A stretch of DNA of 39,511 nt from a virus. The DNA lies in the IMG/VR virus record IMGVR_UViG_3300034200_001358, positions 1-39,511 of that record, one strand, 5' to 3'. Each line of letters opens with the position of its first letter. Position 1 is the first letter of the stretch. The position numbers were made by a program, and so were the translations under genes. The notes below the pieces were generated by a model. That model was given only the letters and a program-made list of their open reading frames with translations. It had not been told where the DNA came from and ran no database searches. Of this stretch, positions 4,588 to 29,950 are shown piece after piece.

Positions 4588-5733
4588 ATGGCATCGCTTA
4601 CCACCCTCCCCAAGTCACCTTACTGGATAGCCCGCATGAGAGTGTGGGTTGCTGCGCCGGAAAGCCCGTCTGGCGGCTTTTGGCGACTCACCATGCGTAG
4701 CACCAAGCTACCGCACAAAACAACCCCTAAACGCACGGCCAAGGCTTTTGCTGACGACATGGAGCGGACGGCGCGGGAACTTCGTTCGGTCAAACCGACG
4801 GCACAATGGTATGCCCATCGCGTCGATAGCCTCATGCGGCTGGCCAACGTCGCCAGCCCGCGCAAGGCGGTCACTTGGACAAAGGCCGCGGAAAGTTGGG
4901 TCGAGGCCAAGACGACGGCCAAGCCCAAGACCATCGACAAATACCGCACCGACATCGCCCACTTCGCCCGCTGGCTCGGCGTGCGGGTCAGCCACGATCT
5001 GCGCGACATCACGCCCGACGACATCAGCGCCTTCTTCCGCGACCTCAAGGACAAGGGTTATTCGGATAACACGGGTGCGCTCATCATTGCCACAATCCGG
5101 TCAGTCTTCCGGCGGGCCGTCCTCCTGCGCCAGATCGACGTCAACCCCGCGGAACTGCTGACGATTAGCCGTTCGGACGCGGCCAAGCGCCGGTCGTTCA
5201 CACCGGACGAGATCGGGCGCATCCTTGCCATCGTAGACGAGGAATGGCGGGTCGCCTGCCTCTTCGGACTCTACTACGGCATGCGGCTTTGGGATGCCTG
5301 CAACCGCTCCCACGAAGAGATCGACGGCGGCGTCCTGCGCTTTGTTCCGCAAAAGAAGTCTCGCAAGGGCAAGGTCGTTGCCGTCCCGCTTATCGGGGAA
5401 CTGGCCAGCCTGCAAGGCACCGGCCCCATCACGCCGCGCCTGCACAAGCTGACGGTGTCAGTGGCCAGCGGGCAGTTTTCCCGCATCTTGGACAAGGCTG
5501 GCATCGTCCGTTCGCGGCAAAAGGCTACTGGCAAAGGCCGCGGGGTTGTGGATGCAACCTTCCATTCGTGGCGGCATACGACCAATTCGCTACTGGTAGA
5601 CGCGGGCGTTGACCAGAAGGTGCGGCAAATGATCTGCGACCACGATACGGTCGAGATGTCCAACCGCTACACGCACGCCTCGCTGGCTACGATGAGCAAG
5701 GCGCTGGAGTCGCTGCAACAGCAGATCAAATAA
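4588..5733 (+). CDS. int: Tyrosine-family integrase
   Basis: Site-specific recombinase of 381 residues that inserts and excises the prophage through a covalent tyrosine intermediate. An N-terminal SAM-like core-binding domain (about residues 95-180, with TIDKYRTDIAHFARWLG) precedes the catalytic domain. The active-site residues are Arg233 (GMRLWD), a Lys in the KKSRKGK loop, His326 and Arg329 (HSWRHT), His352 (CDHD) and nucleophile Tyr361 (NRYTH), so the enzyme looks intact. It is the only gene on the plus strand and its 3' end overlaps the minus-strand nuclease gene by 8 bases. No Shine-Dalgarno is visible before the ATG. Confidence 0.95.
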   Translation: MASLTTLPKSPYWIARMRVWVAAPESPSGGFWRLTMRSTKLPHKTTPKRTAKAFADDMERTARELRSVKPTAQWYAHRVDSLMRLANVASPRKAVTWTKAAESWVEAKTTAKPKTIDKYRTDIAHFARWLGVRVSHDLRDITPDDISAFFRDLKDKGYSDNTGALIIATIRSVFRRAVLLRQIDVNPAELLTISRSDAAKRRSFTPDEIGRILAIVDEEWRVACLFGLYYGMRLWDACNRSHEEIDGGVLRFVPQKKSRKGKVVAVPLIGELASLQGTGPITPRLHKLTVSVASGQFSRILDKAGIVRSRQKATGKGRGVVDATFHSWRHTTNSLLVDAGVDQKVRQMICDHDTVEMSNRYTHASLATMSKALESLQQQIK

Positions 5734-12202: not shown

Positions 12203-15200
12203 TTATTCGTCGTCGTCCATGCGCTCCCAACCCTGCACCAGCGGGCGAACGATGTTCATGATGACCGCGGGCGCGGCGAGCGGTGGCGTAAGCGCAATGG
12301 AGCGCGTGATGTTTGTCCACTCTTTGACCAGCGCGTCGGGGTCGTCGAAGTTGAAGGCGTCGTCGAGATTGTTGAAGGCCCGAAAGGCGGTGTCCGCGGT
12401 GCGGATGAGCGGGTTCTGCGTGGGCGTAAACCATTGGGCCTCGGTCAAGCGCGACAGCACAAGGTCGCTGACACTGCCCAGCAGGAAGTAGCCTTGGAAC
12501 GGAGCCAGCAGCAGGGCGCGGGCAAAACCGCCCATAGACCACAAATCCTCGTCCTCATCGTCGCTGGTCGCATCTCTGAACGCGGTGGCCAGCACATGGG
12601 AAACCACGGCCATCATTTCAATGGCCACAATCCGGCGCACATGGGTTTTCCAGTCGCCGCGTCCGGTGGCCAGTCCGCGGACGGAATCGGAGATGATGGC
12701 CATCTTCAATCGCGGGTCGGACATGAAGAGGAAGAACGCTTTGGTAAATGCGTTGCCGCTGTTTTCGATGTTCGACTTCTGGCCCATCAGCACTGGTTGT
12801 CCGTAGCGGTAGACCATTGCTTCGACGGCATCCTTGGCCACTTGCTCCGCGGAGGTCGGGTCTACGCCGCTGTCGAGCGCGTCCTTGTAGGCGGCTTGGT
12901 AAACAATTGCGCCAGAGACAGATAGACCCGCCGAATCAAGGTAGTTCATGGGCATCATGGACATTTCGGCCACCTTGGCCCCACGCCGGAACATGGAGAC
13001 AAACCGCTCAAAGAAAAACCGCGTTTCCGCCGTGGCACCGCCCTCCAAGCGGGTCTGGATAATGTCCGTCTTCCACACCTTGCGGACGTTCTGCATGAGG
13101 GCAACCGGATCGGACAAAGCAGACCCGATTTGACGGCTGTCGAGCGCCAAGAAGAAGCGCATAAAGTTGTCGGTCTGCATCAACAGCGACTTGAGGTTGT
13201 AGCCCAAAAGCGAAACGGACTGACCGCCAATGACCGCGCCCAGCATGTTTTGAATCCACGCAATCTCCCTGCCCTTGTTGCCGCCGCGCTGCTCCATCTG
13301 GTCGCCCCACATTTCGGCACTGGCAAGAACGTCCTTGCCCAGACGCTGTCTGATGGACTCGCGGACGTCGGGGTTGGAAAGTAGCGAGCGGTATTCGCGA
13401 GTGACTTCGGCAAAGGCGACCCAGTGCGACTGCATGGCAATGTGGCTCTGCAAGACGGTCAGCGCGTCTTCCGGTGCCAGCTTGGCGGTGTGGTTCACGC
13501 GGGACTTGGCAAAGCTGGGCTGGCCACCGGCTGTCAGCGGCGACCCGTCGAGTCCGACGTCTTTGACTTCTTTTTCCGATAGGTAGCGGGCCGGAGCGTA
13601 GTTTCTGACCATTGGCATGTTCATACCAAACATGCGGGCGTAGATCGGGTTGGTCAGCGCGTAGCCGGAACCGTAGATGCGCGACGTCACGCGGAGGATG
13701 GCTTGCGCGAACGGGCCGGAGATAAGGTTGTCGAGATCGTCGAAGCTGTCGTCAGTAAAACCGTCGGCACGCATCTTCTCCTGCGCGTCCGATTGCTGCC
13801 ATGTCAGCCATAGCTGCATGGCCTGTGCGCGGCTCATGGTGAGGCGCACTTCTTCCCCTCGGAAGATCACTTGTTGGATGGTTACATTTTCTTTTCTTGT
13901 GTCCCGCGGCAACGCAGCCAATTCGTCGGCCAGCGTTTGGACGTCGGCTTGCGATAAACTGCTGCGGTCGGCCAGCCCGCGCACAATTTTTTTGGCCAGT
14001 TCAATGGAAATTGTTACCGGCCTTACTTTGCGCCCTTCCATTTTGCGGACGGCGTAGGGCTGGTTCTCCTTGAATGCGACCAGCGCCTTGCTGGTTGACA
14101 TGCCTGCCGCTTTGGCCCCTTGACGTAGGGCGGCAAGAATGCTGCGTGTGTTCTCCAGTTCCAGCTTGGCCTCGTCGATCTGCGCCCGCTGCATTTTCTT
14201 GGACAACTCGGCGGCAACCTCGTCGCCAAAAAGGTAAGGAGCAAACTGCTCAAAACTTTTGTGGTCGAGGTCGAAGGCGTTGACCGCCTGCAAAAAGCGT
14301 TGCAGCGCAGACTTGTTTTCAAAACGTCCAAAGTCGGTTGGCTTGCCCAAGAACGCGATGACCTTGGCGGCTCGCTCGCGGTTCTCTTGGATGCGGGCAG
14401 CTTCCTTGATCTGCCACGCTTCGCGCCCTGCCTTGAGTTGCCCCCGCAACCATTCCAGCCCGTAGGCCAGCGTCTCGGACGAGCGGTTTTTTAAATCGCC
14501 AAACGTGTTGACGATTGTCCACTCTTCAGAAAGTTGCGAAATTTCTTTCTGGCTTTTCGCCACCGATTCGGGATCGCCGTCTTTTGGCACAATGCTGGTG
14601 ATTTCCGCCTCAATTTGCGCCAGACGCTTTGGCGTCTTTTCATCGTCGAGCAGTGAGGCGCGGTAAACCATGTCGGCAAACTTCTGCGTCTCGGCCCCCA
14701 GCGTGCTGCGCTTGACCCCGCTCTGACCGGCCTTGGGACGCGACTTGTCCAGCACATCGAAGATGCGCTCCATGAGGTCGCGCTTGTAGTAACGCTCCAG
14801 TTCGCGGTCGATTTTCTTGAGCCGGTCGATAAGGAAGTTGGCGATAGTTTTGTCCCTGCGCTCGTCGGTGGTGTTTGGCACCGTGCTGTAGCCTTCCGGC
14901 AGTGCCGTGTTTTTCTGCGCCTGCCCGATATTCTGACCCTCGCGCATCCACGCGCTGATGATTGCGCCCGCGGGGTTCTTGGCCTCGCTGACTTTCTGGT
15001 CGCCCTTGTAGACGTCTACCGGCGCAATGCTGGCGAGGTTGGTGTAGCCCCCCACCCGCCCGCGGACTTCCGGCGGTAGCACCTTGAGGATGTAGTCGAG
15101 GAAGCCAAGGTCGTTAAGGATGCGCGTGCGGTCGAAATCCTGCGGCAACATATCGCCGCGCATGGACTGCATGATGGGCTTGTTGCGCTCCAAGGCCGCG

Positions 15201-18200
15201 GCAAGGCGTTCTTTCAGCGCGGCATACTGCGAGATGCGCTCGGAGGGACTGCGGGCGAGACGATCCATCGCCGCCTGCACGCGGTCAATTTCGCGTTGGG
15301 TGGAGATGGAGTAACTGCGCGTGACAGATGGCGTTTCGCCATTGGCCCAGCGTTCCAAAAATCCATGCACGCGAGTCCACTTACCGGACTCCAACATCAT
15401 GGCGGTGCCGTTGCCCAAGTCGTCTTCCAAGTCCAGATACGCGCCGTCGGCAGAAGTGACGAGGTCTTTGAGGACGCGCAACTGCGCTGACGTCGGGCGC
15501 AACCGGCTCCGCATGGAAATCGTGCCGCTGTTGCCATCGATGCGGACGGCTCCCAAGCGGAGAAAGTCGGCCATGCTGCCCCACGTTTCGGTGTATTCCG
15601 GCATCCCGTCCCATTCGATCTCGCGGTGATCCACCTTGCGGCTTCCGCCCATGTAATCGCCTTGGCCGTCTATTGGACGAAAAACTGCGCCGTCGCGCTT
15701 GTAGCCGGACGCCTGCGAACGGCCAGAGAAGTCGAGCATGGTGCCATCCGGCAAAACGTAGCCCGCTTCGTAAATCGAATCGGTGATGCCAAAGCGTTCC
15801 TTGGCGCTGGCAAAAATGTCTTCGGCACTGACGCCGTTGATTGACTTGGCAACCGGCGTGTCCGGCGTGATGGCAACGTCCGCTTTGCGCTGCTCTTGCG
15901 CGGCGGCGATGGAGTAATTTAGCAAATTCGCACTGCTGCCCGCTTTGACGCCCAGCACCTTGAGCGAGGTGGAGGACATGCCGGAGGTGGGCAGCAGATT
16001 AAGTCGCTCCTGCGGCGTGGCGTATTGCCCCGTCTCCTTGCCGACGACGTCCTGCCAATCGACCGCTTCCTTCAGAACGTGCAGCTTGACCTTGGACTTT
16101 TTATCCACCGGCACAATGGTCGCCGGATACGATTCATGCTCGGTTGTGGCGATGCCCTTGACCTCGCCTTGAACTTCGACGATGGCGTAAATCTTGCCGC
16201 TGCCATGCTCTTGGAAGTCGCGCAGGAACGGCTCGGTGAGCATGTTGCCCAGTCCTTGCAGGACGGACGCCTTGGATAGCGTGCCGCGCTTGATGGTGTT
16301 CTTCGCGTGCTTGTTCTCGGCGTCGGCCAGAATGCCCGCGACATACTTGGCGCTCTCCGGCTTGGCGTTGAGGTGCTTGGCGATCTGCTCGGCCAAAGAT
16401 TCCACAAACGCCTTGCGGACTTGGAAGATGGAGCCGGTCGGTTCCAGCAGTGCGTCGATCTTGGCAAAGTTTGTCGCGTAGCTGTCACTGGCCTTGAGCT
16501 TGGTGCGGAAGGTCTTCTTTGTCTCCTTGGTCTTGGTCGGGACGACGACCTCCACCTTGCTGGCGGCGACCAGCATGGCGTTGAGGTCACTCTTTCGTAG
16601 GCCCGCCCGCGGGTCGGTCGTCAGCGCGTTAAGAAACTTGACCACTCCGGTGGCCATCGATGTCGAGGAGAACAACTTCTCGACCGGCGCGGAGACAAGG
16701 CCCATGAGAATCCTGCCGCCGTTCTTCGCCCCGATCTCGTTGAGGTGGTTGGCCGTCCGCATGACCATTGCTTCGGTGGACGCCCAGAAGTAGTTCTTGT
16801 CGGCATACAAAGCCGGATAGTAGACGCCGCCCTTGCCATCAATCTGACCGCCGTCGGTCAACTGGATCGTTCCGGCAAAGGCGTTATCCGGCGAGTGCAG
16901 CAGAATGTGCATGTCGGTAAAGTCGTTGACGTCCACGCCAGTGAACACTCGTCCGTCCTTGACCAACTTGTCGAAGCGCGTGTCGTTCCTGTAGTGATCG
17001 ACGGAGCGTACGATGGAGTAATTTGCCTGCTGCCGCTTGGTGTGTTCGCCAAAAAGGTAATCGTCAACAACCCACGCAGGCACAACGTCAAATCCTTGTT
17101 CTTGCCATGTGTCGAGTCGGTGGTTGCCGTCAACCATCTCGTAAGTGGTTTCTCCTGTGCGAATAACAACAAGAGGAGGATACCCGCTGCCTCGCGGCCT
17201 GCTGTATTCGTCGTAGCGCAACGACTCCCAACCCTGCTCTTCTTGTTGCGTCAAACGGTCGCGGACGTCGCGCCAATCAAAGTCGTCAATATTTTCCTCG
17301 TCGAAAAATTCGTCGGGATAATTTTCTCGGAGTTCTTTTTCGGACATTTTTCGGATGTCCTGTGCGTTCTGTAATTCTACAACATTGGCTCGTAGGTCAG
17401 ATGCGTCCAACATGGCCGGATAAATAAAATCATGCTCCGAATTGGTGTGCGCTTTTACAGTTTCCTCGTTCCAAGCGGTGCCGTAGTTGTCTACCTTGTC
17501 CCAGTCTACTTGAGGCGATGTTCCGCTGTAGTCGTCTGGAGATGCGCCTGCGCGAAATAGCTCCGGTTGGCCAATCGAATAATTCGCCGTCTCCGGCGCA
17601 ACCTCCTGCGCTGTCTTTTCGCGGGAGCGGTCTACCAGTGCCTGCTGGTCAACGCCAACCGCCTCGGCCAAGAGTGCCTCAAAGTCGCGGTCGAGTTTTC
17701 CCTCGGCGCGTAGGCGGGCGAGGTTGTAGGCGCGGCGGAAGATGTCGCGGGTGAAGATGGCCAACCGGCGCATGATACCGCGCAGGCCCGCGGGGATTTG
17801 CTCCTCGCGGATCTGGCCGCGGAAGTAAGCCAAGGCAACGTCGGAGAACGCTTCGATGACGTCGGTGTCCGTCTCGGTGCGTAGCTGGCGATCCATCCGT
17901 TCGCTGTCGATCTGCGGCAGGATGTCGTTGAGTTGCTGACGGACGAAGTCAATGGTCACCCGTCCCTCGGCCATAGCCCGCTTGAGGTTGTCTTGGGCGA
18001 ACTCGCGCATGACGATGGTGCCGTCCGCGCCTTCGTTGATGCGGATGATGCTGCGCCAGATGCCTTCGCGCAGTGCGCCTTGGTTGCTGCCGGTGACGGG
18101 GAAGTTGGCCAATTCGGCGGGTTCGTTGATGTCCTGCCCAAAGGCGCGGACAGTCTCAAAGAGTCGGTCGAGGTTTTCTTGCGTCGGGTTGGCCTCGTAG

Positions 18201-20347
18201 TCGGTGAGCAGCGTGCGCGGCGCTTCCTCGCGGATGACCTTGGCAACGTCCTCGCCGCGCTGGCGGGCTTCGTTGACCCGCTGGATAAAGGCGACAGCTT
18301 CGTTGATGCCGGTATGGACGTCGCGCATCTCGCGCTGCACCGTCTCGCGGCGGGCGGATACCAGTGCCTGCTCGGCGGCGGTCTGGTCGGTCGTGCGGGC
18401 CAGTTCCTTGCCTTCCGGCGAAAGGACAACGTAGTCGGCCCCCTGCTTCTCCAGACGCGGCAACGCGGCGGGATTGGCCTTCTCGCGCAGGGCGATGGAC
18501 TCGTCCACGATGCGCTGGGCGGCGGCTTTGACCAGCTTGGGGTCGCGCTTGCCGTGTTCCTCGACCAGTGCGGCTTGGGCGGCTTCGGCGCTCTCGGCTC
18601 CGGTTATGCGGTCGATCTGTTCGGTGCTGTAACCCATCTTCTCCAAGTCGGCCTTGCTCTTGAGGTAGTTCTCGCCGCGGCTGATCTCGCGGTAGGACAG
18701 TGCGCCAACGCCCATGAGGGAAAGCGGAAGGAGGGCGACAAATTGCACCGCCAGTTCCCGCGGCATACCGGCGAGGCGCTCCTCCCAGTCGTAGTCGGGC
18801 ATGTCGGCGTCGAGCGCCGCGGCGATGGTTTGGACAAACGGAAAGGTGGCGTTTTGCACGATCTCCTGCACGTTTTGCTCGGCCACGATTCCGGCCCCAC
18901 CGATGGCGATGCGGGTGATGTTTCGCTGGTTGGGGTGTTGCAGGCGTTTGACTAAACCGCCAAAGACGGGCAGGCGTCCGGTGATCGTGTTGACCTTCAT
19001 GCGCTCCAGACCGGCTTCGATGGGCGCGGAGATGGCGGCGATGAGCGCGGCCTTGTCGGGATCAAGGTCGGGATACTCCAGCATGATCCGGTCGTAGTTG
19101 CTGCTGAACAGCGCGGAGGCCACGGCGGGAACGCCCGCAATCGGCACCGCGGCGACAGCGGTGTAAGGGATGCTGCGGGCGGCTCCGTAAAGACCTTCCT
19201 CAATAATCTCCGGCAGGACGCCGGTCATCTTAATCGGATCGACGACGCGCTCGGCCAAGTCGCGCAGTTCGCGCTCGACCTTCAAGACGCCAAGGTCGGA
19301 CTGGATCTTGGCCTTGGCTTCCTCGCGTTCTTCCGGCGTCAGCATCTGGCCTTGGGTCGCTCCGAAGACCGGCGTGCTGCCTGCGGCGCTGAACTCGGCA
19401 CCGGCCACGCCTGTGGCGCGGAAGACGGGCTGGTCGCTATTCAAGAGGCGAAGCTGACCGCGGAGCGTCTGCTCGCGGAAGTTGCGCGGCACGCGCTCGA
19501 CGATGTCGCTGGCCCCGCGGCCAAGGGATTCGGCCATCTGATACCAAAAGCCTTTGTCGGTCTGGGTGATCTGGGCAAAGCCTCCGGCCAGTTCGTAGAT
19601 GGCCTTGCGCTGGTTGTCGGGCAACTGGGCAAAGCGGGATGCCATGTCGCGCATGTCGGGCGCTCCGAAGCCGGTCTTTTGTCCGGTGGACTGCTGGAGG
19701 GCGTCAAAGATGAAGCGGGCCTCCGGTGCAAATTTGTCCTGCGAGGCGCGGATCTTCATGTCGAGTTCCTCGGCCTTCTCCCACAGGCGGGACTTTTCCT
19801 CGTCGTCGAACATCTCGGAGGCGGCATCGATGTCCTTGCCCACGCTCTCGACAAAGGGCGTGTCGCCGCCGGAGAGCGCGTCCTCAAGGCTGCGGCGGAT
19901 GACGCCTTGCAGGATCTGGTCGGCGGCAGCTTTCTTCTCGTTGCTGCGCTCAAACTGCCCCTTCTGATAGTCAAACATCTCGCGGGCGCTGGCCGTCTGC
20001 TTGCCCAAAACCTTTTTGGCAAAGCCGTCTTTCTCCGCATCGAAAATCGACCGCATGTCGTCGAGCGGCACCTTACGGGTGTCGGCCAAGAAACCGATCA
20101 TCGCTTGCCGGTAGACGTAGTCGTCGCCATGCAGGCTGACCTTTGCGCCCTCGGTCATGCCTTTCTGCTTGGCGATGGAGTCGAAGTAGTTCTGGTCGGT
20201 AAAGACTTTGTTCCAGTGGCCCAGATCGACGTAGGGCGCATTGTAGCCGCTGCGGCGGCTCGGAGGCGCTCCGGCGCTGGGGTCGGTGTAAGTCCGCGCC
20301 TGCTGGGCTTCCTTGGACTGCGGGGTGGCGGCGAAGGAAATACTCAT
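12203..20347 (-). CDS. Giant polyvalent internal virion protein (2714 aa)
   Basis: One reading frame covering a fifth of the genome. Residues 1-921 are helical with hydrophobic stretches (around 385-425 and 535-560). Residues 922-1108 carry a ParB/sulfiredoxin-like domain with DGNHR at 1073-1077. Residues 1109-1476 and 1477-1677 resemble large polyvalent protein-associated domains (for example SAPVEKLFSSTSMATG and AGYVLPDGTMLDFSG). From 1678 on there is helical sequence ending in a membrane-active C-terminal domain like those of podovirus internal proteins. Each boundary is marked by (N/S)YSI. It is probably ejected into the host with the DNA, where its domains act. It overlaps the transglycosylase gene by ATGA. 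Exact activities are unknown. Confidence 0.85.
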   Translation of the reverse strand: MSISFAATPQSKEAQQARTYTDPSAGAPPSRRSGYNAPYVDLGHWNKVFTDQNYFDSIAKQKGMTEGAKVSLHGDDYVYRQAMIGFLADTRKVPLDDMRSIFDAEKDGFAKKVLGKQTASAREMFDYQKGQFERSNEKKAAADQILQGVIRRSLEDALSGGDTPFVESVGKDIDAASEMFDDEEKSRLWEKAEELDMKIRASQDKFAPEARFIFDALQQSTGQKTGFGAPDMRDMASRFAQLPDNQRKAIYELAGGFAQITQTDKGFWYQMAESLGRGASDIVERVPRNFREQTLRGQLRLLNSDQPVFRATGVAGAEFSAAGSTPVFGATQGQMLTPEEREEAKAKIQSDLGVLKVERELRDLAERVVDPIKMTGVLPEIIEEGLYGAARSIPYTAVAAVPIAGVPAVASALFSSNYDRIMLEYPDLDPDKAALIAAISAPIEAGLERMKVNTITGRLPVFGGLVKRLQHPNQRNITRIAIGGAGIVAEQNVQEIVQNATFPFVQTIAAALDADMPDYDWEERLAGMPRELAVQFVALLPLSLMGVGALSYREISRGENYLKSKADLEKMGYSTEQIDRITGAESAEAAQAALVEEHGKRDPKLVKAAAQRIVDESIALREKANPAALPRLEKQGADYVVLSPEGKELARTTDQTAAEQALVSARRETVQREMRDVHTGINEAVAFIQRVNEARQRGEDVAKVIREEAPRTLLTDYEANPTQENLDRLFETVRAFGQDINEPAELANFPVTGSNQGALREGIWRSIIRINEGADGTIVMREFAQDNLKRAMAEGRVTIDFVRQQLNDILPQIDSERMDRQLRTETDTDVIEAFSDVALAYFRGQIREEQIPAGLRGIMRRLAIFTRDIFRRAYNLARLRAEGKLDRDFEALLAEAVGVDQQALVDRSREKTAQEVAPETANYSIGQPELFRAGASPDDYSGTSPQVDWDKVDNYGTAWNEETVKAHTNSEHDFIYPAMLDASDLRANVVELQNAQDIRKMSEKELRENYPDEFFDEENIDDFDWRDVRDRLTQQEEQGWESLRYDEYSRPRGSGYPPLVVIRTGETTYEMVDGNHRLDTWQEQGFDVVPAWVVDDYLFGEHTKRQQANYSIVRSVDHYRNDTRFDKLVKDGRVFTGVDVNDFTDMHILLHSPDNAFAGTIQLTDGGQIDGKGGVYYPALYADKNYFWASTEAMVMRTANHLNEIGAKNGGRILMGLVSAPVEKLFSSTSMATGVVKFLNALTTDPRAGLRKSDLNAMLVAASKVEVVVPTKTKETKKTFRTKLKASDSYATNFAKIDALLEPTGSIFQVRKAFVESLAEQIAKHLNAKPESAKYVAGILADAENKHAKNTIKRGTLSKASVLQGLGNMLTEPFLRDFQEHGSGKIYAIVEVQGEVKGIATTEHESYPATIVPVDKKSKVKLHVLKEAVDWQDVVGKETGQYATPQERLNLLPTSGMSSTSLKVLGVKAGSSANLLNYSIAAAQEQRKADVAITPDTPVAKSINGVSAEDIFASAKERFGITDSIYEAGYVLPDGTMLDFSGRSQASGYKRDGAVFRPIDGQGDYMGGSRKVDHREIEWDGMPEYTETWGSMADFLRLGAVRIDGNSGTISMRSRLRPTSAQLRVLKDLVTSADGAYLDLEDDLGNGTAMMLESGKWTRVHGFLERWANGETPSVTRSYSISTQREIDRVQAAMDRLARSPSERISQYAALKERLAAALERNKPIMQSMRGDMLPQDFDRTRILNDLGFLDYILKVLPPEVRGRVGGYTNLASIAPVDVYKGDQKVSEAKNPAGAIISAWMREGQNIGQAQKNTALPEGYSTVPNTTDERRDKTIANFLIDRLKKIDRELERYYKRDLMERIFDVLDKSRPKAGQSGVKRSTLGAETQKFADMVYRASLLDDEKTPKRLAQIEAEITSIVPKDGDPESVAKSQKEISQLSEEWTIVNTFGDLKNRSSETLAYGLEWLRGQLKAGREAWQIKEAARIQENRERAAKVIAFLGKPTDFGRFENKSALQRFLQAVNAFDLDHKSFEQFAPYLFGDEVAAELSKKMQRAQIDEAKLELENTRSILAALRQGAKAAGMSTSKALVAFKENQPYAVRKMEGRKVRPVTISIELAKKIVRGLADRSSLSQADVQTLADELAALPRDTRKENVTIQQVIFRGEEVRLTMSRAQAMQLWLTWQQSDAQEKMRADGFTDDSFDDLDNLISGPFAQAILRVTSRIYGSGYALTNPIYARMFGMNMPMVRNYAPARYLSEKEVKDVGLDGSPLTAGGQPSFAKSRVNHTAKLAPEDALTVLQSHIAMQSHWVAFAEVTREYRSLLSNPDVRESIRQRLGKDVLASAEMWGDQMEQRGGNKGREIAWIQNMLGAVIGGQSVSLLGYNLKSLLMQTDNFMRFFLALDSRQIGSALSDPVALMQNVRKVWKTDIIQTRLEGGATAETRFFFERFVSMFRRGAKVAEMSMMPMNYLDSAGLSVSGAIVYQAAYKDALDSGVDPTSAEQVAKDAVEAMVYRYGQPVLMGQKSNIENSGNAFTKAFFLFMSDPRLKMAIISDSVRGLATGRGDWKTHVRRIVAIEMMAVVSHVLATAFRDATSDDEDEDLWSMGGFARALLLAPFQGYFLLGSVSDLVLSRLTEAQWFTPTQNPLIRTADTAFRAFNNLDDAFNFDDPDALVKEWTNITRSIALTPPLAAPAVIMNIVRPLVQGWERMDDDE
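18947..18958 (-). repeat. 12-mer GGTTTAGTCAAA, copy 4 (coding)
   Basis: Exact minus-strand copy read as Gly-Leu-Val-Lys in the giant protein. Uses the Leu codon TTA, which should be uncommon in such GC-rich DNA. Confidence 0.8.
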
Positions 20348-27194: not shown

Positions 27195-28100
27195 TTAGAG
27201 AACTTCGTCACACGGGACTTCGACGACTTTGGCTTCCTGCATGCGCGTGGCGCCCAAAGAGGCGACAGTGCGGATTTGCAGGGCGTGGCTTTTGTCGGCA
27301 CGGATGTCCACATGCACTTTGCGTCCCGCGTCGGCCAGCTTGAGGCCGGACTTGACGTAGGCAAAGCAGGTGCGGACGCCGGTTCCACTCGCGTAGGGCA
27401 AGAGGCCGGAAGCAACACGGCGGAAGGTGAATCCCATGAACGTGTTGATCTCGCCATTGACCAAGGCGCGAACGGTGTTGAAGTCGCCGCTGGTCACCTC
27501 GGTCGTGCGAAGCAAATCTTGGATCTGCTTGGCGGAAACGACCATGATGCGCGGATCGCTGTCATCAACTTCAGCGTTGGTGAGCAGGAACGCCGCTTGA
27601 CGCAGCTTGGCGATGGTGAGGCCACTGTTGGCCGCGGAGCCGGACTCGACGTAATCGACGGCGATCTTCTGCCCAGCGGGCAAAGCGGTCGGCGTGACTC
27701 CGGTTTCTCCGGTGTAGGCGGTGCCAAGGGCGGCATCGATGATCACCTTGTCGGCGGTGCGGGCATAGGCGGCGGCGTGATTGGCAACCGTCTCGCTCTG
27801 GGGAAGGCTAACCTCGCCCAGATACTCGCTGTCCCACTCGTCGAACAACGTGGCGTGTTCAAACGGATAGGGGCGAAGCCAGCGTTTGGCCAAGGCCACA
27901 TCGCTGATGTTGGTGTCGGCTGCGCGGCTGGTGATGCGTTGCATCTCCACTGCGCCCATTTGATTGTAGGATTTCTCCTTGCCGCGGACTGTCTCGACGG
28001 AAACGAATTCGCGCAGCTTGGAAAGTTTCTGCTGAAGCAGATGCTCCCAGTTGCTGGAGAACTCCGTCGTGAAGTATTGCGGAATTTGTGATACGGGCAT
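27195..28100 (-). CDS. Major capsid protein (301 aa)
   Basis: MPVSQIPQYFTTEFSSNWEH, then LQQKLSKLREFVSVETVRGK and a Trp/Arg-rich middle (LAKRWLRPYPFEHATLFDEW) match a phage capsid family of HK97 fold found in podoviruses. The C-terminal half contains the beta-rich AVDYVESGSAANSGLTIAKL. Length is about right. A strong AGGAG lies before the ATG, consistent with high expression, and scaffold, portal and terminase genes are upstream. Confidence 0.88.
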   Translation of the reverse strand: MPVSQIPQYFTTEFSSNWEHLLQQKLSKLREFVSVETVRGKEKSYNQMGAVEMQRITSRAADTNISDVALAKRWLRPYPFEHATLFDEWDSEYLGEVSLPQSETVANHAAAYARTADKVIIDAALGTAYTGETGVTPTALPAGQKIAVDYVESGSAANSGLTIAKLRQAAFLLTNAEVDDSDPRIMVVSAKQIQDLLRTTEVTSGDFNTVRALVNGEINTFMGFTFRRVASGLLPYASGTGVRTCFAYVKSGLKLADAGRKVHVDIRADKSHALQIRTVASLGATRMQEAKVVEVPCDEVL

Positions 28101-28304: not shown

Positions 28305-28423
28305 AAAAGTTCGCGGCGCTTTCTTTAACAAGACCGGCGCTTATTTAAGCAACGTGTCGATGCCTTAAACATGTTGTCCGAAACGTGTATAGAAAACTGC
28401 TATTTTTCGACAGATTAGCAGGA

Positions 28424-28522
28424 GGGCGGTGGCGGGACTTGCACCCGCTTTGTTACATATTCTTGTGTTATTTTGTAACGCTCCACTGTCTGGCCGCGTG
28501 TCCATCTCCACGCCGCACCGCC
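28424..28522 (-). ncRNA. tRNA-like element with non-canonical anticodon region
   Basis: The minus strand begins GGCGGTG and ends CACCGCC, a perfect seven-pair acceptor stem. A perfect five-pair T arm (GCGGG-TGCAAGT-CCCGC) stands in the correct place, and a D-like arm (GCGTG/CACGC) follows the acceptor. The region between (about 47 bases) holds only a GTTACA/TGTAAC stem with a 16-base loop and no 5-bp/7-nt anticodon arm. The T loop has TGC where TTC is usual, and CCA is not encoded. It could be a decayed class II tRNA or a tRNA mimic. It starts 3 bases after the stop of the upstream gene. Confidence 0.45.
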
Positions 28523-28525
28523 AAA

Positions 28526-28678
28526 TTATCGTCCGTTCAACGCGATGTAGACGAACGCGAAGTTGCTGAACATGTAGCCGACGAAGACCGCGCACATGGG
28601 GCGGTCGTCCTGCATGTAAAACCCCGCCGCCGTCCAGCCGTAGCAGAGCGTGCAGATGAGTAGCGGGACAAAGGTCAC
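28526..28678 (-). CDS. Small membrane protein (50 aa, GTG start)
   Basis: Starts at GTG 28678, which overlaps the upstream stop as GTGA, and reads MTFVPLLICTLCYGWTAAGF then FVGYMFSNFAFVYIALNGR. Two hydrophobic segments with a short polar turn (YMQDDRP) predict two membrane passes. No family recognised. It precedes the tRNA-like element. Confidence 0.6.
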   Translation of the reverse strand: MTFVPLLICTLCYGWTAAGFYMQDDRPMCAVFVGYMFSNFAFVYIALNGR

Positions 28679-28965
28679 CCGATGACTCCGTCGTTGTGCC
28701 GCGCCAGCCAGCCACAGACCTCGCTGACCAGACGCCCGATCTCGTCCACGCACTCTTCGTCCAAGTCAAAAAGACGGGCGTGGATTAGTTCGTGGCAGGC
28801 CAATTCGATGCCGCGGTGACTGATAGCGTCGGGATGGATGTAGATCGTGCGGTCGTCCTTCACGCACAACCCGTCGTGGGTCACGCGGGCCGGTGGGCGC
28901 TGAATCTTGATCCGCCACGGTTTGCCATCAATGGCGAGACGTTTGGTCGGGATGCGGCGGCTCAT
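28675..28965 (-). CDS. HExxH metallopeptidase-like protein (96 aa)
   Basis: Contains ELACHELIHARLFDLDEECV: a zinc-binding HELIH at residues 58-62 with acidic residues downstream that could supply the third ligand, as in small SprT- or ImmA-like metallopeptidases. Only 96 residues, so it is a minimal domain. Among head genes it might act on virion proteins, and this genome shows no other obvious protease, but processing activity is speculation. Frame upstream of ATG 28965 is a shadow of other genes. Confidence 0.65.
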   Translation of the reverse strand: MSRRIPTKRLAIDGKPWRIKIQRPPARVTHDGLCVKDDRTIYIHPDAISHRGIELACHELIHARLFDLDEECVDEIGRLVSEVCGWLARHNDGVIG

Positions 28966-29213
28966 TTCAGTCGGTAGTGCGGAACGGGCCGGACGCGCTC
29001 GGCCAGCCGGATGGTGAAGTTGCGTTTCTCGGCCAGTCCTTGCTCGATCTTCCGGCGCACTTGTGTGCTGGTGATGCACTCGCTGCGTCCGCGGGCCTTG
29101 GCCAGTTGCTTGATCGTGAACCAGCCCTCCGGCACTTCTTCGACCGGAATGGTGGGCTGCGACAGGGCTTCGCACCACTGGGCCAGTTGCTTGTCGGCTT
29201 TGGTCTGTTTCAT
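28962..29213 (-). CDS. Hypothetical protein, possibly winged-helix (83 aa)
   Basis: MKQTKADKQLAQWCEALSQP, then GWFTIKQLAKARGRSECITS with TQVRRKIEQGLAEKRNF: a helix-turn-helix-like arrangement in which a short wing (VRPVPHYRLK) ends the protein. May bind DNA. The start overlaps the phosphoesterase stop and the end overlaps the peptidase start. Confidence 0.6.
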   Translation of the reverse strand: MKQTKADKQLAQWCEALSQPTIPVEEVPEGWFTIKQLAKARGRSECITSTQVRRKIEQGLAEKRNFTIRLAERVRPVPHYRLK

Positions 29214-29950
29214 AGCGGTAACTGGTAGTGCGGATCGAAGACCGCAATGTTGACGTTGCAGTTGGTGCCATTGAACGACCCGAAACACGCGGCATGTCGC
29301 CATCCCAGCGTCTGCCGCCGGATGGCCGAATACCCGATGTCCAGCTTGATCCCGCACCCGATGTTGTAGCCGATGGCCTTGTTGTGGATGCGGGCGCTCT
29401 CCATCGCCACGCGGTGGGTGTGGCCCATGACCACCGAATGGCCCACCATTTCCGCGGTGTCCCGCGCCGCCGACACGTTATACATGGCCCCGTGGGTAAA
29501 TCCGGTGTCGCCCAGCATGAACATGCCGCTCTTGTGGACGCCCGCGTAGGGAATGATCTGGCACTTGAGCTTGCCCATCTCGTCCTCAATGCGGGACAGG
29601 ACGCTGCTGGCCGCGTAGGACAAGACCGCGTTGGGACTGTGGGCCAGTTCGGTCAATCGACTTTCGTGATTTCCGAAAAGAAAGACGTCGGGCTTGAGTT
29701 CGCGCAGGAAAGCCAGTCCTTGCATCAGATCGTCGGCCAGATCGGCCCCGTGGTCGGCGCTGTCGCTGTCTTTGCGAGCGCCGGAGCGCAGGGCGCGGGC
29801 ATCGATGGCATCGCCCAGATGCAGGACAAAGTCCGGCTTCCACGCTTCGCGCAGTCTCAAAATGGCGTCGAGCGCCCGCGGATCGGCCTCTGACCCGTGG
29901 GTGCATGTGCAGGCCAGAAACTTCTGCCAGCCTTTGGTTTTGTTGGCCAT
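29210..29950 (-). CDS. Calcineurin-like metallophosphoesterase (246 aa)
   Basis: Carries the ordered motifs of the family: HLGDAID (residues 44-50), LFGNHESR (91-98), GFTHG and VVMGHTHR, which bind two metals and hydrolyse phosphate esters or nucleic acids. The first motif, normally D-x-H, reads CTCTHG, so the first Asp ligand is missing and His18 remains. Activity may therefore be altered. Phage relatives sit among head genes, but their substrate is unknown to me. Confidence 0.82.
   Translation of the reverse strand: MANKTKGWQKFLACTCTHGSEADPRALDAILRLREAWKPDFVLHLGDAIDARALRSGARKDSDSADHGADLADDLMQGLAFLRELKPDVFLFGNHESRLTELAHSPNAVLSYAASSVLSRIEDEMGKLKCQIIPYAGVHKSGMFMLGDTGFTHGAMYNVSAARDTAEMVGHSVVMGHTHRVAMESARIHNKAIGYNIGCGIKLDIGYSAIRRQTLGWRHAACFGSFNGTNCNVNIAVFDPHYQLPL

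Follow-up and report, generated by a model that had tools for sequence, protein, structure and literature searches.

An anticodon-less tRNA-Leu-like RNA element carried by unrelated phages

The window analyzed here, a virus DNA stretch of 39,511 nucleotides (IMG/VR record IMGVR_UViG_3300034200_001358, positions 1 to 39,511), carries on its minus strand a 98-nt element (positions 28425 to 28522) that has the acceptor, D, and T arms of a transfer RNA (tRNA) and no anticodon arm. What such an RNA is, and what a phage may gain from it, is the question raised by this locus. A first-pass annotation, made from the letters alone, had proposed a decayed class II tRNA, a decoy for tRNA-cutting defenses, or a processing signal for the separation of head transcripts. 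We addressed the question by comparing copies of the element found in 46 IMG/VR contigs, the window included, by degenerate patterns and model searches. Loci of this collection are designated by the letter L.

Fold of the element and covariation among its copies

Read directly from the minus strand (28522 to 28425), the element is GGCGGTG-CG-GCGTG(GAGATGGA)CACGC-GG-CCA(GACAG)TGG-AGC-GTTACA(AAATAACACAAGAATA)TGTAAC-AAA-GCGGG(TGCAAGT)CCCGC-CACCGCC. The seven acceptor pairs and five T-arm pairs of the first-pass annotation are all present, as is its D-like stem, with 5 bp (GCGTG/CACGC), and the T-loop has 7 nt. Across copies, the acceptor/T stack of exactly 7 plus 5 bp, the 2-nt linker, and the D arm retain the dimensions of a tRNA. 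Base 28424, at the discriminator position, lies outside the acceptor stem. The anticodon arm and its 7-nt loop are missing, as the annotation had stated, but the middle part is not the single stem that it described, since CCA/TGG (28493 to 28483) and GTTACA/TGTAAC form two hairpins. The former is a covarying 3-bp stub with a 5-nt loop in place of the anticodon arm; the latter is a 6-bp variable arm whose loop, of 16 nt in the window, has the frame TAACA....AATA around a variable middle. The D-loop comprises 6 to 9 nt and keeps GGA in all listed family rows except 4 (GAGAGAA).

This structure is the minimum-energy fold of the element (−37.6 kcal/mol), with a modest z score of just −1.5. The combination of acceptor and T stems had been judged unlikely to arise by chance. 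By itself the 7-plus-5 motif is not compelling, because dinucleotide-shuffled windows yield approximately 0.18 occurrences per strand, versus 3 in the real window; once a D stem placed as in tRNA was also required, the motif was absent from 40 shuffled single strands and occurred once in the window, at the element.

The decisive evidence for the element is comparative, namely, covariation in every stem. Among 28 distinct copies, aligned by fitting to the model with few indels between copies, standard pairs occupied 99.9% of 728 cells, and a compensated pair was found in each of the four inner stems, versus 27 to 50% standard pairs when the partners were slid by 1 to 3 columns as a control. Counting of the same pairs on a free MAFFT alignment of 13 sequences revealed compensated pairs in three inner stems. 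Loop and junction lengths differ by 1 to 3 nt between copies. Compensatory changes, which the first-pass annotation had proposed to seek in related phages and whose absence it regarded as a refutation, were thus found. These alignments indicate that RNA pairing of the element is under selection, and we regard it as virtually certain that the element is a real structured RNA. A kissing pair between the T-loop and the stub (GACA/UGUC) was rejected, being present in copies with an 8-nt T-loop only and not kept in the others.

Two distant homologues extend the comparison. The homologue in Acidovorax phage AP1 (OM049504, 4329 to 4443, intergenic), reached via a weak blastn match, has the linker and D arm of the family, the acceptor TCGGGAG/CTCCCGA, and the T-arm GCTGG(AATCAAGC)CCAGC. 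A D-arm 16-mer searched in 398 genomes gave five matches, versus 4 for the control, which is approximately the chance level. One of the five, in genome G109, has the acceptor CGACGCG/CGCGTCG and the T-arm GCAGG(TATCAAGC)CCTGC; it lies in a bacterial prophage between helicase and terminase genes and adjoins tRNA-Ser and tRNA-Arg. Because neither the T arm nor the 3′ acceptor strand was used in finding the AP1 and G109 homologues, these parts are independent evidence. Both homologues retain the linker CG, the D arm, and the T-loop ATCAAG, whereas five of the seven acceptor pairs are changed on both sides. When the cores of eight sequences were joined by hand, each of the 136 cells was paired, with 7 double-changed pairs in all, a result reached by none of 500 shuffles.

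Two side observations concern these replicons. In the G109 prophage, a second tRNA-Leu-like gene (L228:1395-1476), for which there was no ARAGORN call, lies directly upstream of the homologue and has a GCAA tetraloop in place of its anticodon loop (ATCGC-GCAA-GCGAT). In AP1, a tRNA-Leu-like 3′ end near the integrase gene (OM049504 49103-49135, L234) is probably the attachment site of that phage.

Resemblance to tRNA-Leu and searches for known RNAs

Covariance model R1, which gives family members 91 to 125 bits, detected no true member in approximately 500 bacterial genomes, a sample not aimed at the likely host phylum. Searches for bacterial chromosomal copies by two patterns on genome contigs returned nothing or chance matches. 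The weak R1 matches were informative: among the 41 inspected (20 to 31 bits) were 24 tRNA-Leu genes in register, 5 other tRNAs, 3 transfer-messenger RNAs (tmRNAs), and 9 sequences that were neither, with no tRNA-Ser or tRNA-Tyr, the long-arm tRNAs besides tRNA-Leu. By resemblance, tRNA-Leu is the nearest relative of the element among bacterial genes, and descent from tRNA-Leu is likely. The tRNA-like nature of the element is very probable, and its relationship to tRNA-Leu in particular is probable.

The element has in common with bacterial tRNA-Leu the 7-bp acceptor, the 2-nt linker, the D-arm core GGCG..GA..GG..A.A.CGC, the T-arm GCGGGTTCAAGTCCCGCC, and a long variable arm. Unlike tRNA-Leu, it has no anticodon arm or loop but has a 5-bp D stem, a 16-nt variable loop, C8, and G55; in most copies the discriminator is not A73, and CCA is mostly absent. 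The window has C as its discriminator, and any of A, G, C, and T can occur there in other copies, so that the A73 required by leucyl-tRNA synthetase (LeuRS) is not kept. ACCA is encoded in L122, L129, L137, and L144, and GCCA is encoded in L102, L109, and L117. A phage tRNA-Met(CAT) (L103:9290-9364) is identical to the window element over 21 nt of T-arm and acceptor strand, and the tRNA-His of a phage array of ten tRNAs (L087:6207-7179) has the T-loop TGCAAGT, with G55 instead of U55. Both loci were rejected as family members, since they carry real tRNAs with matching T-arms.

ARAGORN found no tRNA at the element, in the rest of the window, or at nine loci of family members, which excludes a misfolded canonical tRNA, a possibility left open by the first-pass annotation. 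Rfam identified no known RNA in the window at the gathering score or at E values up to 10, so that neither program provided the tRNA or tmRNA match that the annotation had proposed to look for. The Rfam tRNA model (RF00005) had no match up to an E value of 10 in the window and L102 or up to 5 in L076, L122, L126, L131, and L144. A peptide gene was also considered, because ATG or TTG is found at the 5′ edge of all copies and some frames are open; the 1- to 2-nt loop changes and a TGA codon (L092/L105) break the frame, and the element is therefore not a peptide gene. Every main-family copy has an ATG followed by an immediate stop (ATGTAA or ATGTGA) on the 3′ side of the variable arm, kept across the compensated pair, which may be a coincidence. 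In the literature, no description of such an anticodon-less tRNA-Leu-like phage RNA family was found.

Gene contexts and spread of the element

Copies were found in no fewer than five gene contexts that are unrelated to one another. In T7-like podoviruses they precede the capsid gene (the window, L003, L079, and others), and in phages whose capsid is of the SU10 type they separate TerL from a small gene (L093, L102, and L109). Phages with DNA polymerase A carry them between a primase-like gene and the gene for dCMP deaminase (L112, L124, and L127), their contigs reaching 74 kb. The copy of L082 follows a GNAT gene and precedes a convergent amidase gene, and those of L084, L136, and L143 lie between M15 endolysin and integrase genes. 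The element is not tied to capsid genes. Thus, the location between a small membrane-protein gene and the capsid gene, noted in the first-pass annotation, holds for the window phage and is not general to the family. Separation of head transcripts is contradicted as a general function by the copies before convergent genes, at the lysis/integrase junction, and between primase and dCMP deaminase genes.

A capsid-protein scan returned 74 loci, few of which carry the element. Others, with a 98% identical capsid, lack it, indicating that the element comes and goes. The same 98 nt were found in unrelated phages, before dCMP deaminase (L112/L114) and between TerL and the MFTKTKT... gene (L117/L120). 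Copies that share a 5′ flank have several different 3′ flanks, and copies that share a 3′ flank differ on the 5′ side, the change falling exactly at the element, which indicates that recombination runs through it. Neither a clean empty site nor a target duplication was found, the flanks being replaced over some 20 to 50 nt in relatives lacking the element, and each record searched whole contained one copy. Together, these comparisons indicate that the element spread horizontally as a small self-contained unit among dozens of unrelated phages. Plasmid matches (IS110, Borrelia, and Azospirillum) were dismissed as chance, and a final scan of viral sequences for the D arm returned, besides known members, coding coincidences only.

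No promoter or terminator belonging to the element was detected by a consensus scan; a hairpin followed by TTTT just past the element is a possible weak terminator (Table 1). Several neighboring genes are recorded as side observations. Homologues of a metallophosphoesterase gene of the window (29210 to 29950) precede the element elsewhere (L092, L119, and L144), and L082 has another phosphoesterase-like gene. The MFTKTKT... gene (L109, L118, and others) starts 10 to 13 nt 3′ of the element, with no Shine-Dalgarno-like sequence between them. The window, otherwise that of a T7-like podovirus, encodes a tyrosine integrase (4588 to 5733, plus strand), and the phage may therefore be temperate. It also contains a 2714-aa open reading frame (12203 to 20347) in the tail/internal virion region.

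Table 1. Positions of the element, its parts, and adjacent features in the window
Feature	Positions	Strand	Remarks
Whole tRNA-like element	28425..28522	minus	98 nt; covariance model R1, 125 bits
Acceptor-like stem, 5′ strand GGCGGTG	28516..28522	minus	7/7 pairs with 28425-28431
Linker CG, 2 nt	28514..28515	minus	tRNA positions 8-9; no canonical U8; invariant in family and distant homologues
D-like arm GCGTG/CACGC, 5 bp, loop GAGATGGA with GG	28496..28513	minus	Compensated GC/UA pair
Stub hairpin CCA(GACAG)TGG at the place of the tRNA anticodon arm	28483..28493	minus	Compensated AU/GC pair, 12/28 sequences
Long variable-arm-like hairpin GTTACA-16 nt-TGTAAC	28452..28479	minus	Compensated UA/CG pair, 14 versus 13 sequences plus one UG
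T-like arm GCGGG(TGCAAGT)CCCGC	28432..28448	minus	Third pair GC/AU/UA across family and distant homologues
Acceptor-like stem, 3′ strand CACCGCC	28425..28431	minus	Pairs with 28516-28522; covariation tests
3′ end CTCC at the place of discriminator plus CCA	28421..28424	minus	ACCA or GCCA in other copies
CTGCTA..TAGCAG hairpin, then TTTT, just past the element	28393..28421	minus	By eye; loop too long for terminator scan
Small membrane-protein gene, directly upstream	28526..28687	minus	Stop 28528-28526, 3 nt before the element; conserved in relatives
Major capsid protein	27195..28100	minus	ATG 28100, 324 nt downstream of the element; PHROG 3437 major head protein, E 3.8e-62; Pfam Phage_capsid_2

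Proposed function and its alternatives

Our leading interpretation, to which we give somewhat less than an even chance, is a non-coding phage RNA built on a tRNA-Leu body and acting in trans as an anticodon-less mimic; action in trans as such is slightly favored. Its acceptor, D, and T arms keep the length, spacing, and elbow of a tRNA, whereas only a 3-bp stub is left of the anticodon arm, and the variable arm is enlarged. The element would be transcribed together with the gene upstream, and the host RNase P would free its 5′ end from the mRNA, with trimming of the 3′ end; excision by RNase P is plausible. Once freed and unable to decode, the element may occupy a host protein by which the elbow or acceptor of tRNAs is recognized, most likely an enzyme of tRNA-directed immunity or, alternatively, a tRNA-handling enzyme. 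What the element retains is recognized by RNase P, tRNA-end enzymes, elongation factor, and synthetases, and what it has lost serves decoding.

Known defenses offer precedents for such recognition. The tRNA-cutting defense Septu reads the tRNA variable loop (PMC13096335), and Cas12a3 reads the acceptor, T-arm, and CCA tail (PMC12851939); a decoy would therefore need no anticodon. Phage tRNAs have already been proposed to counter tRNA cutting (PMC10264068). The tRNA-Tyr of T5 and T6 and the tRNAs of mycobacteriophages are likewise phage borne, tRNA shaped, and proposed as decoys or replacements (PMC13096335, PMC10264068); unlike the element, they decode codons. A decoy role against immunity is the foremost specific role that we propose, but a tentative one and in itself rather unlikely. 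Marginally more doubtful is the full proposal of a new class of phage RNAs, in which anticodon-less tRNA-Leu mimics would move as single-gene modules among unrelated phages and serve as decoys for, or inhibitors of, host immunity directed at tRNA, the variable loop being the contact that changes in an arms race.

Several observations weigh against the mimicry interpretation. The acceptor helix extends to 16 bp in AP1, so that exposure of the tRNA end is not a general feature. The discriminator varies and CCA is often absent, and charging or CCA-dependent binding therefore cannot be the conserved function. Copies without the GG of the D-loop, and G55 in the T-loop, weaken the canonical elbow contacts. 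The acceptor and T arms hardly vary within the main family, and a bias of R1 toward GC-rich class II tRNAs may contribute to the tRNA-Leu matches, the leucine origin being a matter of resemblance. Neither a partner protein nor a linked defense gene was identified.

Unlikely, if the strongest of the alternatives, is a cis-acting processing or 3′-end signal, at which RNase P/Z or a structured 3′ end would cut or stabilize phage mRNA, separating transcripts or protecting their ends. The element is indeed encoded in the same direction as the upstream gene, soon past its stop codon, in the contexts examined; the 12-bp acceptor/T stack with its T-loop is the usual form of an RNase P substrate; and in some cases the element sits at the end of an operon, ahead of convergent genes. 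Plain processing, however, needs no invariant D arm, stub hairpin, or variable arm with a conserved loop frame, close relatives with a 98% identical capsid do without the element, and the contexts span head to replication genes. A selfish or recombination module, serving as a short homology island for the exchange of flanking genes with little RNA function, is less likely again. The exchange of flanks exactly at the element and the identical copies in unrelated phages agree with it, but compensated changes in all stems need selection on RNA pairing, and the module would have to be reconciled with the lack of a clean empty site and the single copy per record.

The remaining explanations account for less. 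A charged mimic, leucylated by LeuRS and sequestering leucine, LeuRS, or EF-Tu, would fit the tRNA-Leu-like body: E. coli LeuRS ignores the anticodon, and a minimal truncated tRNA-Leu is chargeable if A73 and the elbow contacts are kept (PMC9976931), A73 and CCA being found together in four copies (L122, L129, L137, and L144). Since C73 abolishes charging (PMC9976931) and the window has C73, charging cannot be general; most copies have C73, G73, or T73, CCA is not kept, and the AP1 helix is closed, making this explanation quite improbable. The class II tRNA proposed in the first-pass annotation stands as a layout and not as a decayed gene. Loss of the anticodon arm and the variable discriminator and CCA would suit decay without function, which is contradicted by covariation, since copies exchanged between phages keep 99.9% of their pairs with compensated changes; the wide spread and the layout shared with the distant homologues also argue against decay, which is highly improbable. 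Equally so is a known class that was missed, be it a twister-sister ribozyme, tmRNA, bacterial Y RNA, or capsid 5′ leader riboswitch. Twister-sister, the best Rfam match of the element (17.3 bits, E value of 0.92), was rejected because its score is below the gathering score of 34 and its 3′ strand falls in the unconserved flank. Like tmRNA, whose 3′ ends are among the weak R1 matches, the element is tRNA-like without an anticodon arm, but it has 98 nt, no tag reading frame, C-G instead of G-U at pair 3:70, and no Rfam or ARAGORN match. The bacterial Y RNA YrlA is also a non-coding RNA with a tRNA-mimicking module, and the closed long stem of the AP1 copy may be a further likeness; no tested copy matched any Rfam family. 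A leader riboswitch is at odds with the copies that have no co-directional gene downstream. T4 stable RNAs C and D are likewise phage-coded stable RNAs of unknown role and, unlike the element, lie in a tRNA cluster.

RNA genes of this kind are overlooked by standard tRNA finders and by Rfam. The element is short and well delimited, with at least 46 contigs and two distant homologues, one of them in a cultured phage, so that its expression, processing, and binding partners are directly accessible to experiment. Whether phage tRNAs help with codons or replace tRNAs that have been cut has been a matter of debate for decades. The two ideas are separated by an RNA that retains the body of a tRNA but has given up decoding, since any benefit to the phage must then come from binding or processing and not from translation.
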